DNA from: Neisseriaceae bacterium CLB008
GTDB taxonomy: Bacteria > Pseudomonadota > Gammaproteobacteria > Burkholderiales > Neisseriaceae
Assembly: GCA_041228285.1 (NCBI GenBank)
Contig: CP166133.1
Span: 2,327,380 to 2,391,379, forward strand
Reading direction: 5' to 3'
DNA length: 64,000 nucleotides
This document shows, piece after piece, positions 13,696-22,276 of the stretch; within the stretch, counting starts at the first letter, position 1, and each line of letters starts with the position of its first letter. Under the pieces are notes generated by a model. The model saw only the letters and a list, made by a program, of their open reading frames with translations. It was not told where the DNA came from and did not search any database. The position numbers and the translations under genes are program-made.

Positions 13696-14115
13696 TTATG
13701 CCTCTTCATTCATGCTGTGCCAGCGGCCCCACACCAGCAGCTGCTGATAGGCATCGGCCTCAATGCTGTCGGGCAAAAGCCACAGCACCTGTTTTTTACC
13801 TTGATTTTGTATGTACAGCACCATCACCCAACGGGCAAACACGCTGCCGTCTAACAGCGTGGCCGGACTCAAGGCTTTATCGCTAGCCTTGGCCACCGAC
13901 AGCAGCCCCTGCGGATTAATGTTCAGTTCGGTGAGCCGGCCAGACGCACGCGTCATCCGATAATGGGTGTGCACCACGCTGGCCAAGGCCAAGGCACTCC
14001 ACAACCAAGGTTGCTCAAAATACAGCCAAATCAGCGCCACCAGTGCAAAATGCACCAGGATATTAATCGCTAAGGCCCATTTTGACGGGGCAAGGTGAAC
14101 GTGAATCGGCTTCAT
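13696..14115 (-). CDS. YgfX/CptA-like membrane protein
   Basis: This 139-residue protein has two adjacent hydrophobic helices near the N-terminus (about residues 14-33 and 36-50) followed by a soluble domain with VLYIQNQGKKQVLWLLPDS. That closely follows the E. coli YgfX pattern GKRQHLWLAADS, and the topology matches the family. E. coli YgfX was reported as an inner-membrane toxin affecting FtsZ and MreB, paired with SdhE; no SdhE gene is adjacent here, so a toxin role should not be assumed. It is translationally coupled (TAATG) to the upstream small conserved gene and lies about 30 bp upstream of folC. Confidence 0.65.
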   Translation of the reverse strand: MKPIHVHLAPSKWALAINILVHFALVALIWLYFEQPWLWSALALASVVHTHYRMTRASGRLTELNINPQGLLSVAKASDKALSPATLLDGSVFARWVMVLYIQNQGKKQVLWLLPDSIEADAYQQLLVWGRWHSMNEEA

Positions 14116-14474
14116 TACATCATATTGTCCACAACGGGGATGTTGTGCATGGGCTCGTCTACCAAGTCCAACACCGTACTGTTGATTTCAACGTCAAAAA
14201 AGGCCCAGAACGCTTTTAAGCTCATGTCTTCAGGCCAATCCTTAGGGCTTTCATACCAAGCGGCCAATTCGGCCTTAAATATAGCTTCGTAATGCTCGTC
14301 CACAAAGGCAATGACGTCTTCTGGCTCATCACATTCGGGCACCATCAAGACGGTGCAATCGCTGCGCAACTGAGCCAAGGTCAGGTCTAAACCTTCTTTT
14401 TCAACCGACTTAAGCCAAGTTAAAAACAATTCCGTGGGTTTAATCACCACGGCTGCACGATCCACAAAATACAT
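14115..14474 (-). CDS. Conserved small acidic protein, function unknown
   Basis: I recognise the pattern of this 119-residue soluble acidic protein (MYFVDRAAVVIKP, LRSDCTVLMVPE, FWAFFDVEINSTVLDL) as one common in beta- and gammaproteobacteria without a proven function; some databases label it VacJ, which appears to be a mislabel because it has no lipoprotein signal or MlaA features. No catalytic motif is evident. It overlaps the YgfX-like gene by one base, suggesting a two-gene unit, and is divergent from the ABC-F gene across a short region with a perfect 11-bp inverted repeat. Confidence 0.7.
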   Translation of the reverse strand: MYFVDRAAVVIKPTELFLTWLKSVEKEGLDLTLAQLRSDCTVLMVPECDEPEDVIAFVDEHYEAIFKAELAAWYESPKDWPEDMSLKAFWAFFDVEINSTVLDLVDEPMHNIPVVDNMM

Positions 14475-17198: not shown

Positions 17199-18092
17199 AT
17201 GCGACACATCTTGGTCATTGGCAGCCTCAATATGGACTTAGTCACCCAGGCCGAGCGCTTTGCCGCGCCGGGTGAAACCATTTTAGGCCAGCAATTCAAC
17301 ACGTTTATGGGCGGCAAAGGCGCTAATCAGGCCGTAGCGGCAGCGCGCCTAGGCGCTCAGGTCAGCCTCATCGGCGCCGTGGGCGATGACGCCTTTGGCC
17401 AAGAACTGTGCCAAGGTCTCAGAGCCGAAGGCGTCAACACCGATGCCGTCGCCATCTTGGCGCACCAACGCACCGGCATTGCCAGCATCACCGTAGCTGA
17501 AGCCGACAACCACATCATCGTGGTGGCCGGTGCCAATCATGCGCTGACGCCCGCCCACATCGAGGCCCAGATCGAGCTGATTCACAGCGCCGACGTGGTG
17601 CTGTGCCAGCTGGAGATTCCCTTAAGCTGTGTACAGCGGGCCGCCGAACTGTGTCGACAGGCTCAAGTGCCCTTCCTACTGAACCCCGCACCCGCACAAA
17701 CCTTGCCGACCGATTTATGGCCACTGATTGACTACCTCACGCCCAACGAACACGAACTGGCGATACTCAGCCCTAACCACGCAGACTTAACCAGCCAGCT
17801 GGCTGCTTTACCCTGCACCGTCGTCATGACCCACGGCCAAGATGGCGCTTATTATTTAGACCCCACACAGCACGGCCTACGGCATCAGCCCAGCTTTACG
17901 ATCCAGGCCGTCGACAGCACCGGTGCTGGCGACACCTTTAACGCCGCGCTGGCCGTTTATCTCAACCAGGGCCTAGAACAGGCCGTGGCCAAAGCCTGCG
18001 CAGCTGGCGCCCTTGCAGTCACCCAGCTAGGCGCCCAAGCCGGCATGCCCAGTGCCGCGCAGCTGACCGAATTCATTCACTCTCAAGGTTAA
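17199..18092 (+). CDS. rbsK: Ribokinase
   Basis: This PfkB-family sugar kinase of about 297 residues would phosphorylate ribose to ribose 5-phosphate. It shows GSLNMDLV at the N-terminus, the substrate motif GGKGANQAVAAARLG near residue 38, LNPAPA, the NEHEL segment and the catalytic GAGDTFNAALAVYL signature with the base Asp. ATG codons exist at 17187 and 17199; the second has AGG at a better distance, and the frame extended to 17160 would overlap the previous gene. No ribose transporter or rbsR is nearby, so it probably salvages internal ribose. Confidence 0.9.
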   Translation: MRHILVIGSLNMDLVTQAERFAAPGETILGQQFNTFMGGKGANQAVAAARLGAQVSLIGAVGDDAFGQELCQGLRAEGVNTDAVAILAHQRTGIASITVAEADNHIIVVAGANHALTPAHIEAQIELIHSADVVLCQLEIPLSCVQRAAELCRQAQVPFLLNPAPAQTLPTDLWPLIDYLTPNEHELAILSPNHADLTSQLAALPCTVVMTHGQDGAYYLDPTQHGLRHQPSFTIQAVDSTGAGDTFNAALAVYLNQGLEQAVAKACAAGALAVTQLGAQAGMPSAAQLTEFIHSQG

Positions 18093-18107
18093 TCCAGAAA
18101 GCTTCTT

Positions 18108-19397
18108 ATGCGTGTTTCTTTTCGCCACTTAACGGCGCTGACCCTTTGCACCAGCCTGATTGGCTGCGCCCAACTAACGCCGCTGGCCCCAGACGCGAGC
18201 CCAGCCGAACGCATGACCTACGCCACCAGCAACCATTTGCTGCACGAGCACAGCTACAACTTTGACATCAACCTAAAAGTCGACGAATTGACCTTAGTCG
18301 ACGCCGAGAAAAGCGCCCATGTGCACGATGCCGAGGCCGATGCCCAATACCCTGAACTGGCCGAACTCAGCAACAGCCTAAGCCAAAAACTGATGAGCGG
18401 TAAAAAAATCATCATGGGCCTCAACATCGATGCCAGCGGCGCCGTAGACATGCGCCGCGGCAAGCTAGAGGTCATTCCGGCGGTGCGTTTTGAAATTCCC
18501 AACGCCAGCGCCAAGGCAAAGCTGCCCATGCTCCTTGATCTGAGCCAAAACAGCTTTTATATTGACCCAGCCGCCATCACCAACTCATTGCCCGAGCTCA
18601 GCTGGCTACAACCCTATCAACAGCCTGCCGGCACCTTTTATCGCATCAACTTGGCCGAACCTAAGGCCCTGGCCGATCTAAAAGCAATTGGTAAAGAAAT
18701 CCCAATCCAGCACTTCTTACAAATCTACGTCGACAGCTATGCCAAAGCCGTCGCCAATATGCCGCCTGAGCGCATTCAAATGGTGGCCGTCGACGATTGG
18801 GGTAAAAGCATTCACGCCACTCAGCAAATCAACGCCATCTTAAGCCTAGAGGAATACCTAGACTATACGAGCGTATTAGAACAACACCTGCTGGAAGGCA
18901 GCATCGCCTACTTTAAAAAATATCAAGGTAAAGCCTTACCAGCACATCTGGTCAAGGCCATTCAGGACATTGATTTAGACGCCCAGCAAGTGTCACGCGC
19001 TCTGGCAACGAGCCTACTCACCGAGCTCTTACCCAAAGACAGCCAGCTCAGCACCGACACTCAGCAGCTGGCCATCAAACAGTCGCTTTATCTAGACGGC
19101 AATAATCGCCTCGTTGGCCAAAGCGATGGTGCCAAGCTGAACCTTGATGCCTTTAAACTCGACATCAATAGCCGTACCCACTTAAGCAATTTTGGCCGCC
19201 CAACCTGGCAGATCAACACCAAAAAAGCCAAAGTGATCGACGCCGACGTCACCCTCCTCACCGATCAAGCCTGGGCGACCTTAATCAGCGCTGGTGCAGA
19301 GGCATCATCGGCTGACGATGAAGAGGAATCCCTCATTGACACCGACAGCGTAGACGCCGCCGCCTGGGCCGAACCTGCTGTAGCCGTCATCGAATAA
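18108..19397 (+). CDS. Lipoprotein of unknown function, paralogue 1 of a tandem pair
   Basis: I do not recognise a named family. The 429-residue protein has a lipoprotein signal with lipobox SLIGC (Cys20). Its mature part contains YNFDINLKVDEL near residue 50, a segment with RRGKLEVIPAVRFEIP, a DYT-type helical central region, and SNFGRPTW near residue 365 before an acidic C-terminus. The next gene aligns with it over most of its length and shares the lipobox position, the YNF motif and SNFGRPTW. The gene starts 15 bp after rbsK and ends at a terminator, so it may be the last gene of the uup operon. An envelope location is likely; the role is unknown. Confidence 0.75.
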   Translation: MRVSFRHLTALTLCTSLIGCAQLTPLAPDASPAERMTYATSNHLLHEHSYNFDINLKVDELTLVDAEKSAHVHDAEADAQYPELAELSNSLSQKLMSGKKIIMGLNIDASGAVDMRRGKLEVIPAVRFEIPNASAKAKLPMLLDLSQNSFYIDPAAITNSLPELSWLQPYQQPAGTFYRINLAEPKALADLKAIGKEIPIQHFLQIYVDSYAKAVANMPPERIQMVAVDDWGKSIHATQQINAILSLEEYLDYTSVLEQHLLEGSIAYFKKYQGKALPAHLVKAIQDIDLDAQQVSRALATSLLTELLPKDSQLSTDTQQLAIKQSLYLDGNNRLVGQSDGAKLNLDAFKLDINSRTHLSNFGRPTWQINTKKAKVIDADVTLLTDQAWATLISAGAEASSADDEEESLIDTDSVDAAAWAEPAVAVIE

Positions 19398-19421
19398 GCA
19401 CCAGCACCCTCTAAGCACCCC

Positions 19422-19461
19422 AAAAAAGCCACCGAGCGCCAAGCGCCTCGGTGGCTTTTTT
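19422..19461 (+). terminator. Rho-independent terminator after lipoprotein 1
   Basis: AAAAAAGCCACCGAG pairs perfectly with CTCGGTGGCTTTTTT around a GCGC-containing loop, about 25 bp after the stop codon. Confidence 0.92.
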
Positions 19462-19645
19462 AACCCATAAAATCACGTCAAAAAACAAAATCTTAAACCC
19501 ACCCACTTAGCCCCATTAAGCCTCATCTAATCAAGCTAAAGCCATATTTAAGGTTGTCTAAATGGCTGAAATCCCTTATTGTTCTGTCTGACAACCGTGT
19601 TTGCCTCCGTGCATGCCCATCCAACTTTAGAATAAAAGGCCTAAC

Positions 19646-20938
19646 ATGACTTTTTCATTAAAGACAGTCAGCGCGCTGGCGCTCAGCCTCAGCCTTATTG
19701 GCTGTGCCAACATGTCTTCACTCCCCCAAGACGCCACCGCGGCTGATCACCTCAGCCGCGCCTACGAGCGCTCATTCACCGTAGACAACCGCTACAACTT
19801 TGAAATTGAAGGCAAGCTCACCGCGTTTACGCCTGCGGGCCAAGTACCCGTAGCCGCAGCAACCGAAGCCGCTGATGCAGCGGAGGCGGCCGCTGAGGCC
19901 GCTGAAGAAGCCAGCGCCTATGCCATGGCTGCCGATGCAGCTGCCGCTGACGCCAAAGCCTATGCTGGCATCGATGCCACCCAAGAGGCCGCCGACATTG
20001 AAATTCAACTAGACGACGCCTATGACGTAGCCAATATTGATGCCCTCATCAGCGCCGAACAACGCGGCAACGACGATGACTATTACAGCGACTCAGCCTA
20101 TCAAAAACGTAGCCAAGCGCGTCAAGATGGCATCTTCAACACCTTAAAAAACTTCAGCTTCGTGGCCAAGGGCGCCATGGATTTACCCAATGGCCGTCTG
20201 GAGATGACCCCCAGCATCCAATATTACGGTAACAATATTGAAGCCAAAGCCTCTGTACCCATGGCGCTGAACCTAAGCAAGGGTGAAGTATTGGCCGATC
20301 CTTCAGCCATCACGTCGACCTTTGGCTGGGCCTTTGGCTTAGACGAATACGGCATTGCCGACGCCAACGGTCGATTCTTACGCTATAAATTTGATAAAGA
20401 CTTACTCAAAGACATCCCGGTCAAAGAGTTGGGCAAGGCGTATTTAGACGCCATGAAAAAAGCCTTAGCTGAAGTCAAGCCAGAACAGCTTAAGTTTGCT
20501 CCGGTCGACGCCTTCGGTAAGAAATTAGGCGCCCGCCAGCAAATCACCATGAGCCAAACCTTGCCAGAAATGATGGCCTTTTCTGCCAACACCATTGGCC
20601 ACTTTAAAACCAACGTTGACGCCTTCCTAGAAAGCTATGAAGGCAAGCCATTGCCAGAGCCGGTGCAAAGCTTCTTGGACCAGTTAGAAGTCATGCCTGA
20701 GATGATGATGATGGGCTTAGACCTAGACAAAGCCGATAGCGGCCAAATCGTGACTCAATACTATTTAGGCAGCGGCGATCGCTTCTTAGGCATGTATTTG
20801 GAAATGACGATCACCGACGAAGACATCCAATTCACCATTGGCACCAGCATGAAAAACAGCAACTTTGGCCGCCCAACCTGGACGGTCACCCCAGCTGAAG
20901 AGAATATCTACGACATCGATCCAGCGCTGTTCCATTAA
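19646..20938 (+). CDS. Lipoprotein of unknown function, paralogue 2, with Ala-rich segment
   Basis: This 430-residue protein has lipobox SLIGC with Cys20, as in the neighbour at 18108. It shares YNFEIEGKL, the segment NGRLEMTPSIQYYG (against RGKLEVIPAVRFEI), the GKPLPEPV/GKALPAHL stretch and SNFGRPTW near the C-terminus. It differs by an alanine-rich, probably helical insert at about residues 70-115 (for example AAEAAAEAAEEASAYA) and a run of four Met near residue 352. It has its own upstream gap of 248 bp and ends at a strong terminator, so it is probably transcribed separately. Function unknown; the outer membrane is the likely site. Confidence 0.75.
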   Translation: MTFSLKTVSALALSLSLIGCANMSSLPQDATAADHLSRAYERSFTVDNRYNFEIEGKLTAFTPAGQVPVAAATEAADAAEAAAEAAEEASAYAMAADAAAADAKAYAGIDATQEAADIEIQLDDAYDVANIDALISAEQRGNDDDYYSDSAYQKRSQARQDGIFNTLKNFSFVAKGAMDLPNGRLEMTPSIQYYGNNIEAKASVPMALNLSKGEVLADPSAITSTFGWAFGLDEYGIADANGRFLRYKFDKDLLKDIPVKELGKAYLDAMKKALAEVKPEQLKFAPVDAFGKKLGARQQITMSQTLPEMMAFSANTIGHFKTNVDAFLESYEGKPLPEPVQSFLDQLEVMPEMMMMGLDLDKADSGQIVTQYYLGSGDRFLGMYLEMTITDEDIQFTIGTSMKNSNFGRPTWTVTPAEENIYDIDPALFH

Positions 20939-20947
20939 GCGCTCATA

Positions 20948-20978
20948 AAAAAAGCTGCCCTAGGGCAGCTTTTTTTTG
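20948..20978. terminator. Bidirectional terminator between lipoprotein 2 and the MFS gene
   Basis: AAAAAAAGCTGCCC and GGGCAGCTTTTTTTT form a strong hairpin around a short TA centre, between converging genes. Confidence 0.92.
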
Positions 20979-21007
20979 TTCATTAAGGGCATCGCCCATA
21001 TCAAACC

Positions 21008-22276
21008 TTAGGCAATGTCTTTATCCGCAGCCTTAGCCCCGACCCATAAAAATAAAATAGCCAAGAAGACGCTGGCGCTCATCGCCCCCACCATCACCCA
21101 CTGCGGCGAATGCGAATCGACCACGCCCAGCGCTGCCTCACGCGCCTGCTGGTTTTGTAAAAACATCGACAGCAGCATCACCGCCACCGATGAAATAAAG
21201 AAGCGCAGCGTGCCCGCCAAAGACGACACCGTTCCCGACATGTGCGGGAACTGAGACAGCGTGGTCGCCATCAAATTCGAGCCAATCATCGACACACAGC
21301 CAATATAACCCGCCACGCACAACACCAAGGGAATGAAGCCTAAATCAAACACCGTCACCAGCAGCATCAACACCCCCATCGTGCCCTGAATGCTCAAGCC
21401 CAGCTTGAGCATATTCATGGTGCCCAAACGGTGCACCAAGCGCGTATTCATCGTGGTCAAACTCATCATTGTGACAATATTAAAGGCAAAGAAATAGCCA
21501 AAGTTCTGCACCGATACGCCATACAGCTTAATGTAGACCACGGTACCAAAGCTCAAGAAGCTAAATAAACCCATGCTCGAAAATGCGCCGGCCAACATAT
21601 AGCACAGCATTTTCTTGTGCCCAAACAGCGCAATAAAATGGCCAAAGGTTTTGGCCAAACTAAAGGGCACTCGGTACTCTTTGCGCAGCGTCTCCGGAAT
21701 GTAGGCTGCCACTAAGCCCAACACCACCAAAGCACAGGCCGCCAACACCCCAAACATCACCTGCCACGGATACCAAATGATGATCCAACCGCCAATAATC
21801 GGCGCCAATAGGGGCGCCACGTTCGACACTAGGGTCACAAACGACAGCGTGCGTGAGAAGTCTTCCTTATCAAACAGGTCGCGCAGCAAGGCGTTAATCA
21901 CCACCACGCACGATGCGGCTGCAAAGCCGTGCACAAAGCGCATGCCAATCAAGGCATCAATCGTCGGCGCATAGGCACAGCCAATGGTGGCCGCCATAAA
22001 TGCCAAAAGGCCAAAAATAATGATGGGCTTGCGGCCAAAGCTGTCCGAAATGGGGCCGTAGACCAATTGTCCTAGACCAAAACCGGCCAGATAGCTGCCA
22101 ATGGTCAGCGACACCATGCCATCAGTGGTGCCGTAGGTATGCGCAATCTCGGTAAAACTGGGTAAGTACAGATCAATCGACAGCGGCATCAGCATCGAGA
22201 TGCAGCCTAAAATGAAAATCAGTCGCTTTTGATTCACGCTGCTGAGTAAGGGATGAGGCGAGGAAGAGGAAATCAT
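21008..22276 (-). CDS. Bcr/CflA-type multidrug MFS transporter
   Basis: This 422-residue protein has about twelve membrane helices. Family landmarks are SIDLYLPSF in helix 1, GQLVYGPISDSFGRKP (the MFS motif A loop between helices 2 and 3) and ALLRDLFDKEDFSR after helix 4. These fit the Bcr/CflA drug:H+ antiporter group (DHA1), whose members export bicyclomycin, chloramphenicol or sulfonamides; the substrate here is unknown. It is a single gene, and the upstream 300-bp gap separates it from the tRNA genes. Confidence 0.87.
   Translation of the reverse strand: MISSSSPHPLLSSVNQKRLIFILGCISMLMPLSIDLYLPSFTEIAHTYGTTDGMVSLTIGSYLAGFGLGQLVYGPISDSFGRKPIIIFGLLAFMAATIGCAYAPTIDALIGMRFVHGFAAASCVVVINALLRDLFDKEDFSRTLSFVTLVSNVAPLLAPIIGGWIIIWYPWQVMFGVLAACALVVLGLVAAYIPETLRKEYRVPFSLAKTFGHFIALFGHKKMLCYMLAGAFSSMGLFSFLSFGTVVYIKLYGVSVQNFGYFFAFNIVTMMSLTTMNTRLVHRLGTMNMLKLGLSIQGTMGVLMLLVTVFDLGFIPLVLCVAGYIGCVSMIGSNLMATTLSQFPHMSGTVSSLAGTLRFFISSVAVMLLSMFLQNQQAREAALGVVDSHSPQWVMVGAMSASVFLAILFLWVGAKAADKDIA

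Follow-up and report, generated by a model that had tools for sequence, protein, structure and literature searches.

What do two adjacent lipoprotein genes of Neisseriaceae bacterium CLB008 do, when their products match no named protein family in sequence? The genes lie side by side, about 18 to 21 kb into a 64,000-nucleotide stretch of contig CP166133.1 (assembly GCA_041228285.1, positions 2,327,380 to 2,391,379), which as a whole we call the window; we refer to them as gene 1 and gene 2. With moderate confidence, and largely on the basis of structure prediction, we read their products as periplasmic proteins of one unnamed family, probably anchored in the outer membrane, that would bind lipids or lipoproteins in a clam-like fold. 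Active transfer of lipid by these proteins is a further step, which we propose with less assurance. The original prediction, made from the sequence alone, had described the pair as tandem paralogous lipoproteins and suggested a two-component envelope function, and its claims are taken up below where the evidence bears on them.

Two paralogues of an unnamed family

The two open reading frames (ORFs) have the expected 429 and 430 codons, and both translations contain the lipobox SLIGC with Cys20, the motif YNF (residues 50-52), and, close to the C terminus, SNFGRPTW. The proteins are true paralogues, because their similarity reaches well beyond the signal peptide and scores far above shuffled sequences. 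In BLASTP the two share 25% identity along 342 residues (E 3e-31), an alignment that begins at position 53 of the gene 1 protein; a second, N-terminal alignment covers 62 residues at 35% identity. When the mature parts are aligned, they score 295, whereas 500 shuffles average 40 (standard deviation 5.7) and reach 68 at most. The outcome that would have refuted the original prediction, a lack of significant similarity outside the signal peptide, was thus not obtained.

By sequence comparison, the pair belongs to an unnamed family, as had been predicted. Neither protein matches a Pfam model at cut-off (one sub-cut-off match each, E 0.023 and 0.13) or an NCBIfam model (best E 0.072), and neither has a match in PHROGs or PADLOC at E <= 1. 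The gene 2 protein has one chance-level match among PDB sequences (ribosomal L10E, E 0.6), and gene 1 has no relative among the viral contigs searched. Widening the comparison to 44 family members yielded scattered weak Pfam matches (best E 0.0015 among the 25 of 40 families listed) and two single NCBIfam matches at E 0.004. The corresponding 44-row profile picked up “8fje E8” (E 0.0004, 47 positions) and DHT03 (E 0.005) among PDB sequences, both of which we took as helix-like chance matches. In open-licence papers on the fold discussed below, on its members, and on Neisseriaceae and Snodgrassella lipoproteins, we recognized none on this family.

Where does the family occur? Searched singly, each gene matches in 17 of 61 genomes. 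A 25-row profile finds the family in 38/83 genomes of the window's own family, including 16/46 in one genus (g10), each with one match only, and 14/14 in the genus that includes Snodgrassella (g6; Snodgrassella alvi, S. gandavensis, and Snodgrassella sp. CFCC 13594). With the 44-row profile, 36/61 genomes of a related family, f28, are positive. Eight genomes are positive in a sample of 200 from the order, five of them in f28 and one in a further family (f22), and among 369 genomes sampled from the class the matches were limited to the window genome itself and a single N-terminal match of 44 residues (E 4e-4). A fourth match in the window genome (E 0.56), whose ORF reads like an amidase, was left out of these counts. 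As far as sampled, then, the protein family seems confined to Neisseriaceae and relatives.

A predicted clam fold and its possible ligands

The functional reading comes from the predicted structures. AlphaFold2 gave a model of mature gene 1 from 44 alignment rows with a predicted local distance difference test score (pLDDT) of 83 and a predicted template modeling score (pTM) of 0.80, and a model of gene 2 from 25 rows with pLDDT 77 and pTM 0.71. A second-look structural aligner placed LppX first for both models, tied with LprG and LprF; together these three proteins, LprG with four entries, fill the top six places in each list. The gene 2 model aligns with LppX at Z 10.8 and a root-mean-square deviation of 3.7 over 158/183 residues (first six rows, Z 10.4-10.8), and the gene 1 model at Z 10.2 and 4.8 over 163/183 residues (first six rows, Z 9.3-10.2). 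These rows align 158-175 of 183-210 target residues, with 6-13% identity. Below the LppX group stand RseB, LolA, and EPDR1 at Z about 7-8, which is also the usual ceiling in this aligner for models that lack a clear Foldseek match. For gene 1, rows 1-29 all belong to LppX/LprG/LprF, RseB, LolA, EPDR1, or Staphylococcus aureus SAOUHSC_02783, and the first other protein is a DUF1849 member at Z 6.0.

The arrangement of the gene 1 model can be read in line with the superfamily that these matches define. The LolA superfamily is described in PMC6363788 as an 11-stranded antiparallel sheet, with six strands, a lid, and five strands, and with a common apolar pocket; LprG and LolB have helical lids. 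If two short strands (157-162 and 356-360) are set aside, we read the model as six strands, lid helices, and five strands, with further helices following strands 1 and 8, and this order fits that description. In a test of the remaining 11 strands, averaged over the family, 10 show a clear contrast between an apolar and a polar side, which 0-7.5% of windows outside strands equal; the exception is strand 204-207, which is not amphipathic (53%). An amphipathic sheet also fits other folds. Judging from the models, we consider it probable that both proteins have the LolA/LppX beta-clam fold.

The second line of argument concerns the membrane anchor. The aligned Cys is present in 44/44 members, and Asp occurs at +2 in 0/44. 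Under the lipoprotein sorting rule, absence of Asp at +2 fits an outer-membrane location, and on this ground we predict that both lipoproteins sit in the outer membrane. Separately, one locus (L114, 6376-10816) holds three tandem members whose N-termini resemble transmembrane anchors, with a long hydrophobic stretch and a poor lipobox.

How might such proteins work? In the predicted structure, a curved antiparallel sheet of six strands, a helical lid, and five strands would form a half-barrel whose apolar concave side could hold acyl chains. Helical insertions in two of the strand-to-strand connections (1 to 2 and 8 to 9) would bring the mature protein to about twice the size of LppX, and the N-terminal Cys would anchor it. 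The protein would then probably take up, hold, or hand over a lipid or an acylated protein on the side of the outer membrane that faces the periplasm.

Characterized proteins of the fold share some features with the window proteins and differ in others. The mycobacterial LppX, LprG, and LprF (PF07161) are the best fold matches, are lipoproteins, and share with the predicted structures an N-terminal helix followed by the half-barrel. However, the window proteins have no PF07161 match, extra helical insertions, and about 410 mature residues, compared with 183-210 in the PDB chains. A PF07161 search of the window genome also found no match, though none of 14 controls gave a signal either. In a vesicle assay, LprG moves triacylglyceride between membranes (PMC4709180). 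LolA (PF03548) matches the fold up to Z 8.0. LolA is soluble and not lipidated, whereas the window proteins carry a lipobox, show no sequence match to it, and come from a genome whose own LolA is elsewhere. LolB is an outer-membrane protein about half the size of the window proteins; these have no match to its Pfam model (PF03550), and the genome has its own LolB as well. LolB is nonetheless a lipoprotein of the same superfamily, according to PMC6363788.

Genomic context offers a possible tie to lipoprotein transport. We checked 30 loci, taken from the 36 positive f28 genomes, for lolA. It lies 3' of the family gene on the same strand in 23/30, at -37 to 264 bp by our own choice of starts; these are all 23 loci of three genera (g72, g87, and g120). 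In the same 23 loci (L136-L163), nadE lies 5' of the family gene, so that the order is nadE - family gene - lolA. When 81 of the 127 listed neighbor genes at loci outside the window were scanned with Pfam, 2 matched LolA and 3 matched NAD synthase, as many as were included. The window genome encodes a separate LolA (C1:1235492-1235974, E 5e-47) and LolB (C1:298444-298866, E 1e-22) far away, which argues that the window genes are extra to the Lol pathway.

Weighing the alternatives

Several results weigh against a lipid-binding clam. For neither model did Foldseek find a PDB match at E <= 0.001, and LppX, LprG, and LprF are absent among the 50 Foldseek rows listed, so that the fold claim rests on the second-look aligner. 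With most of their alignment rows in common, the two models are not independent. The gene 2 list places OmpG (Z 7.6) and the FimD usher (Z 7.5) level with LolA and RseB, and DSSP assigns 13 strands to the gene 1 model, with 11 reached only by the omission described above. At the sequence level, the window proteins match none of PF07161, PF03548, and PF03550 at E <= 10, the 44-row profile found no LppX or LolA among PDB sequences, and the family profile compared with a LolA profile gave Prob 0.7% and E 0.086, in what is a weak test with only 12 close LolA rows. The lolA neighbor is absent in 7/7 loci of a fourth f28 genus (g39), and there is no lolA in 33/33 loci of the window's own family (12-17 kb each). 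Where lolA is present, nadE is just as conserved, and because both flanks are conserved the link to lolA may be plain shared synteny rather than function. Finally, VioE shows that the fold can exist without lipid binding, as reported in PMC6363788.

Could the window proteins instead be unrelated beta-rich lipoproteins with a structural role, which resemble LppX only in a common arrangement? The Foldseek E-values and the low identity in the first six structural alignments are what this would predict, as is the score that a barrel such as OmpG reaches with gene 2. Yet both lists are headed by the same six LppX-group entries, which exceed unrelated rows by about 2-3 Z units or more, and we regard a chance likeness as unlikely.

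On the 44-row tree, the two genes and their two counterparts in another genome of the genus (G002) form one clade (100/99) that splits into two pairs (100/100 and 100/99), apart from other tandem copies. The simplest reading is that a gene was duplicated within this genus's lineage and that the copies then diverged strongly, although the inner branches of the clade are long (0.9-1.3 changes per column) and attraction of long branches could underlie it. Tandem duplication has recurred in the family, since adjacent copies also form sister sets at L117 (99/97), L114 (three copies, 100/100), and L074 (two of its three, 100/100). Between the window genome (G000) and G002, pN/pS (the ratio of nonsynonymous to synonymous change) is 0.31 for gene 1 and 0.25 for gene 2, compared with 0.06, 0.17, and 0.22 for the upstream genes uup, NlpC, and kinase, with synonymous distances near saturation at about 1.0-1.2. 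Both genes thus evolve faster than their upstream neighbors and yet stay constrained, and the duplicates have probably diverged toward different ligands or conditions.

The copies differ in a loop between strands 1 and 2. The segment bounded by the N of YNF and the G of GA(V/M)D is about 65 residues longer in the gene 2 protein (124) than in the gene 1 protein (59). The gene 2 loop is 29% Ala, with an Ala-rich part of about 45 residues by our reading, and it falls in a block of pLDDT 38-61 over residues 61-120 of the model. The original prediction described the Ala-rich part as a 45-residue helical insert that only the second gene has. It is instead a hypervariable loop of the whole family, because its length varies from 33 to 138 residues in 44 members (median 81.5) and because a member from another genus (L104, 6951-8360), the single match in its genome, has in the same place a loop of 123 residues that is more Ala-rich (36%). 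Mean pairwise identity over the 44 members is 11% in the loop, compared with 25% in the core.

Tandem copies and a hypervariable loop are also what would be expected of immunity or shield lipoproteins, like the S. aureus DUF576 proteins (Csa, Lpl, and TilA), that intercept incoming envelope toxins such as lipases by binding and blocking them. SAOUHSC_02783, which we take to be a DUF576 protein, is a fold match in both lists as 4eg9 and in one as 4egd, and Csa1B (4big) is a match in one list, all weakly (Z 6.0-7.3); 4eg9 is also the third Foldseek row for gene 1 (E 0.028). DUF576 lipoproteins likewise occur as tandem paralogues, and one of them, TilA, inhibits its partner lipase toxin TslA (PMC10730906). 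However, the Pfam model of DUF576 is unmatched by the window proteins, S. aureus is Gram-positive, and single-copy family members are common here. No lipase appears among the 8 window neighbors scanned with Pfam, nor in the 25 listed of the 108 Pfam families matched by the 81 neighbors elsewhere; at one locus (L122), a gene that looks patatin-like by eye lies three genes 3' of a family member. We rate an immunity role as improbable.

We give a similarly low rating to the idea that the two proteins work as an obligate heterodimer or two-component pair. Of the 4 genomes of the window's genus that were searched, 3 have both copies, including a second genome of the same species (G232); the fourth genome (G001), in which the 25-row profile matched neither gene, is 81% complete. 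The constraint on both genes between G000 and G002 would also be expected of obligate partners. Against this, single-copy relatives are common, other tandem sets group by lineage on the tree, and a terminator-like hairpin lies between the two genes. The predicted two-component function is therefore not supported, and the data do not need it.

RseB and MucB genes adjoin sigma and anti-sigma genes, and no sigma or anti-sigma family was found among the 8 window neighbors scanned. In the gene 1 model we also do not see the separate C-terminal domain that RseB has (PMC6363788), and the window proteins differ from RseB and MucB in having a lipobox. We therefore rate as improbable an analogous envelope-stress sensor, in which the clam would bind mislocalized LPS (lipopolysaccharide) or lipoprotein and signal via a partner, even though RseB matches both models (best Z 7.7 and 8.1) and MucB, with the same fold, binds lipid signals (PMC7400510).

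The locus, its neighbors and wider meaning

The features of the locus are collected in the table, and the gene order is also found in G002. Pfam identifies the genes upstream of gene 1 as an ABC-F-type ATPase (presumably uup), an NlpC/P60 protein, and a PfkB kinase, whose ORF stops 15 bp 5' of gene 1. The original prediction attached gene 1 to a uup-NlpC-rbsK unit and gave gene 2 its own promoter region. The 248-bp gap between the genes does contain a strong terminator-like hairpin, but a sigma-70 scan of 17800-21300 found 2 promoter-like sites (2.4 expected by chance) and none in the gap; gene 2 may still have its own promoter. The pattern scan for terminators, which found 11 sites where 5.5 were expected, missed this hairpin, probably owing to a one-base bulge.

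Table. Features of the lipoprotein locus, in window coordinates
Feature	Position	Strand	Description and basis
Lipoprotein 1 (429 aa)	18108..19397	+	Family member without long loop; acidic C-terminal tail; ORF, translation, paralogy, AlphaFold2 model
Gene 1 signal peptide and lipobox	18108..18167	+	SLIG/C (Cys20), Ala at +2; translation
Terminator-like hairpin with T run, between the two genes	19422..19461	+	RNA fold -28.1 kcal/mol, z -7.6, 0/200 shuffles as good
Lipoprotein 2 (430 aa)	19646..20938	+	Family member with long Ala-rich loop; ORF, translation, AlphaFold2 model
Gene 2 signal peptide and lipobox	19646..19705	+	SLIG/C (Cys20), Ala at +2; translation
Ala-rich part of hypervariable strand 1-strand 2 loop	19850..19990	+	About residues 69-115; translation, 44-member loop comparison
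Terminator-like hairpin 3' of lipoprotein 2	20947..20976	+	Pattern scan; RNA fold z -4.0, 1/200 shuffles as good

We also looked for a partner gene. LprG forms an operon with the transporter gene Rv1410, of the major facilitator superfamily (MFS), an arrangement that is not a feature of LppX itself (PMC4709180). In the window, an MFS gene (21008-22276, minus strand) is convergent with gene 2, as it is in G002, and stands behind a terminator-like hairpin rather than in an operon. As a candidate partner it was set aside, its cluster being absent from those that recur in at least three loci. In the Snodgrassella genus, 8 loci have another cluster that we read as MFS-like (c8), at a distance of some genes. 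A common partner in the window's family was rejected too: the top neighbors, tgt (13/40 loci) and argH (11/40), are housekeeping genes, with six genomes counted twice, and are limited to the Snodgrassella genus, one other genome (G004), and, for tgt, Stenoxybacter (Stenoxybacter acetivorans, G013, genus g12).

Farther upstream in the window is a CptA-like membrane toxin homologue (13696-14474, minus strand; PF07254, E 8.9e-12), adjoining a 119-amino-acid ORF and what we take to be a FolC-like gene. In another genus (L113, 11255-13437), relatives of that ORF and of the FolC-like gene flank an ORF of similar size that does not cluster with the CptA-like homologue.

What would a lipid-binding role mean for these bacteria? 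To our knowledge, how lipids other than LPS are delivered to the Gram-negative outer membrane is still being worked out. It is tempting to see in this unnamed family of Neisseriaceae and relatives a lipid-trafficking system, a Gram-negative counterpart of LppX and LprG that would sit in the outer membrane, encoded beside lolA in some genera, and carry specific lipid or acylated cargo outside the ordinary Lol pathway, with repeated lineage duplications for different cargoes. Taken whole, this is speculative, and we hold it as doubtful. The family nevertheless makes a testable candidate: it is present in all 14 Snodgrassella-genus genomes examined, its predicted fold is that of lipid carriers, and the window pair has no Pfam or NCBIfam model at cut-off. 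The predicted fold gives a structural reading to genes that had none.

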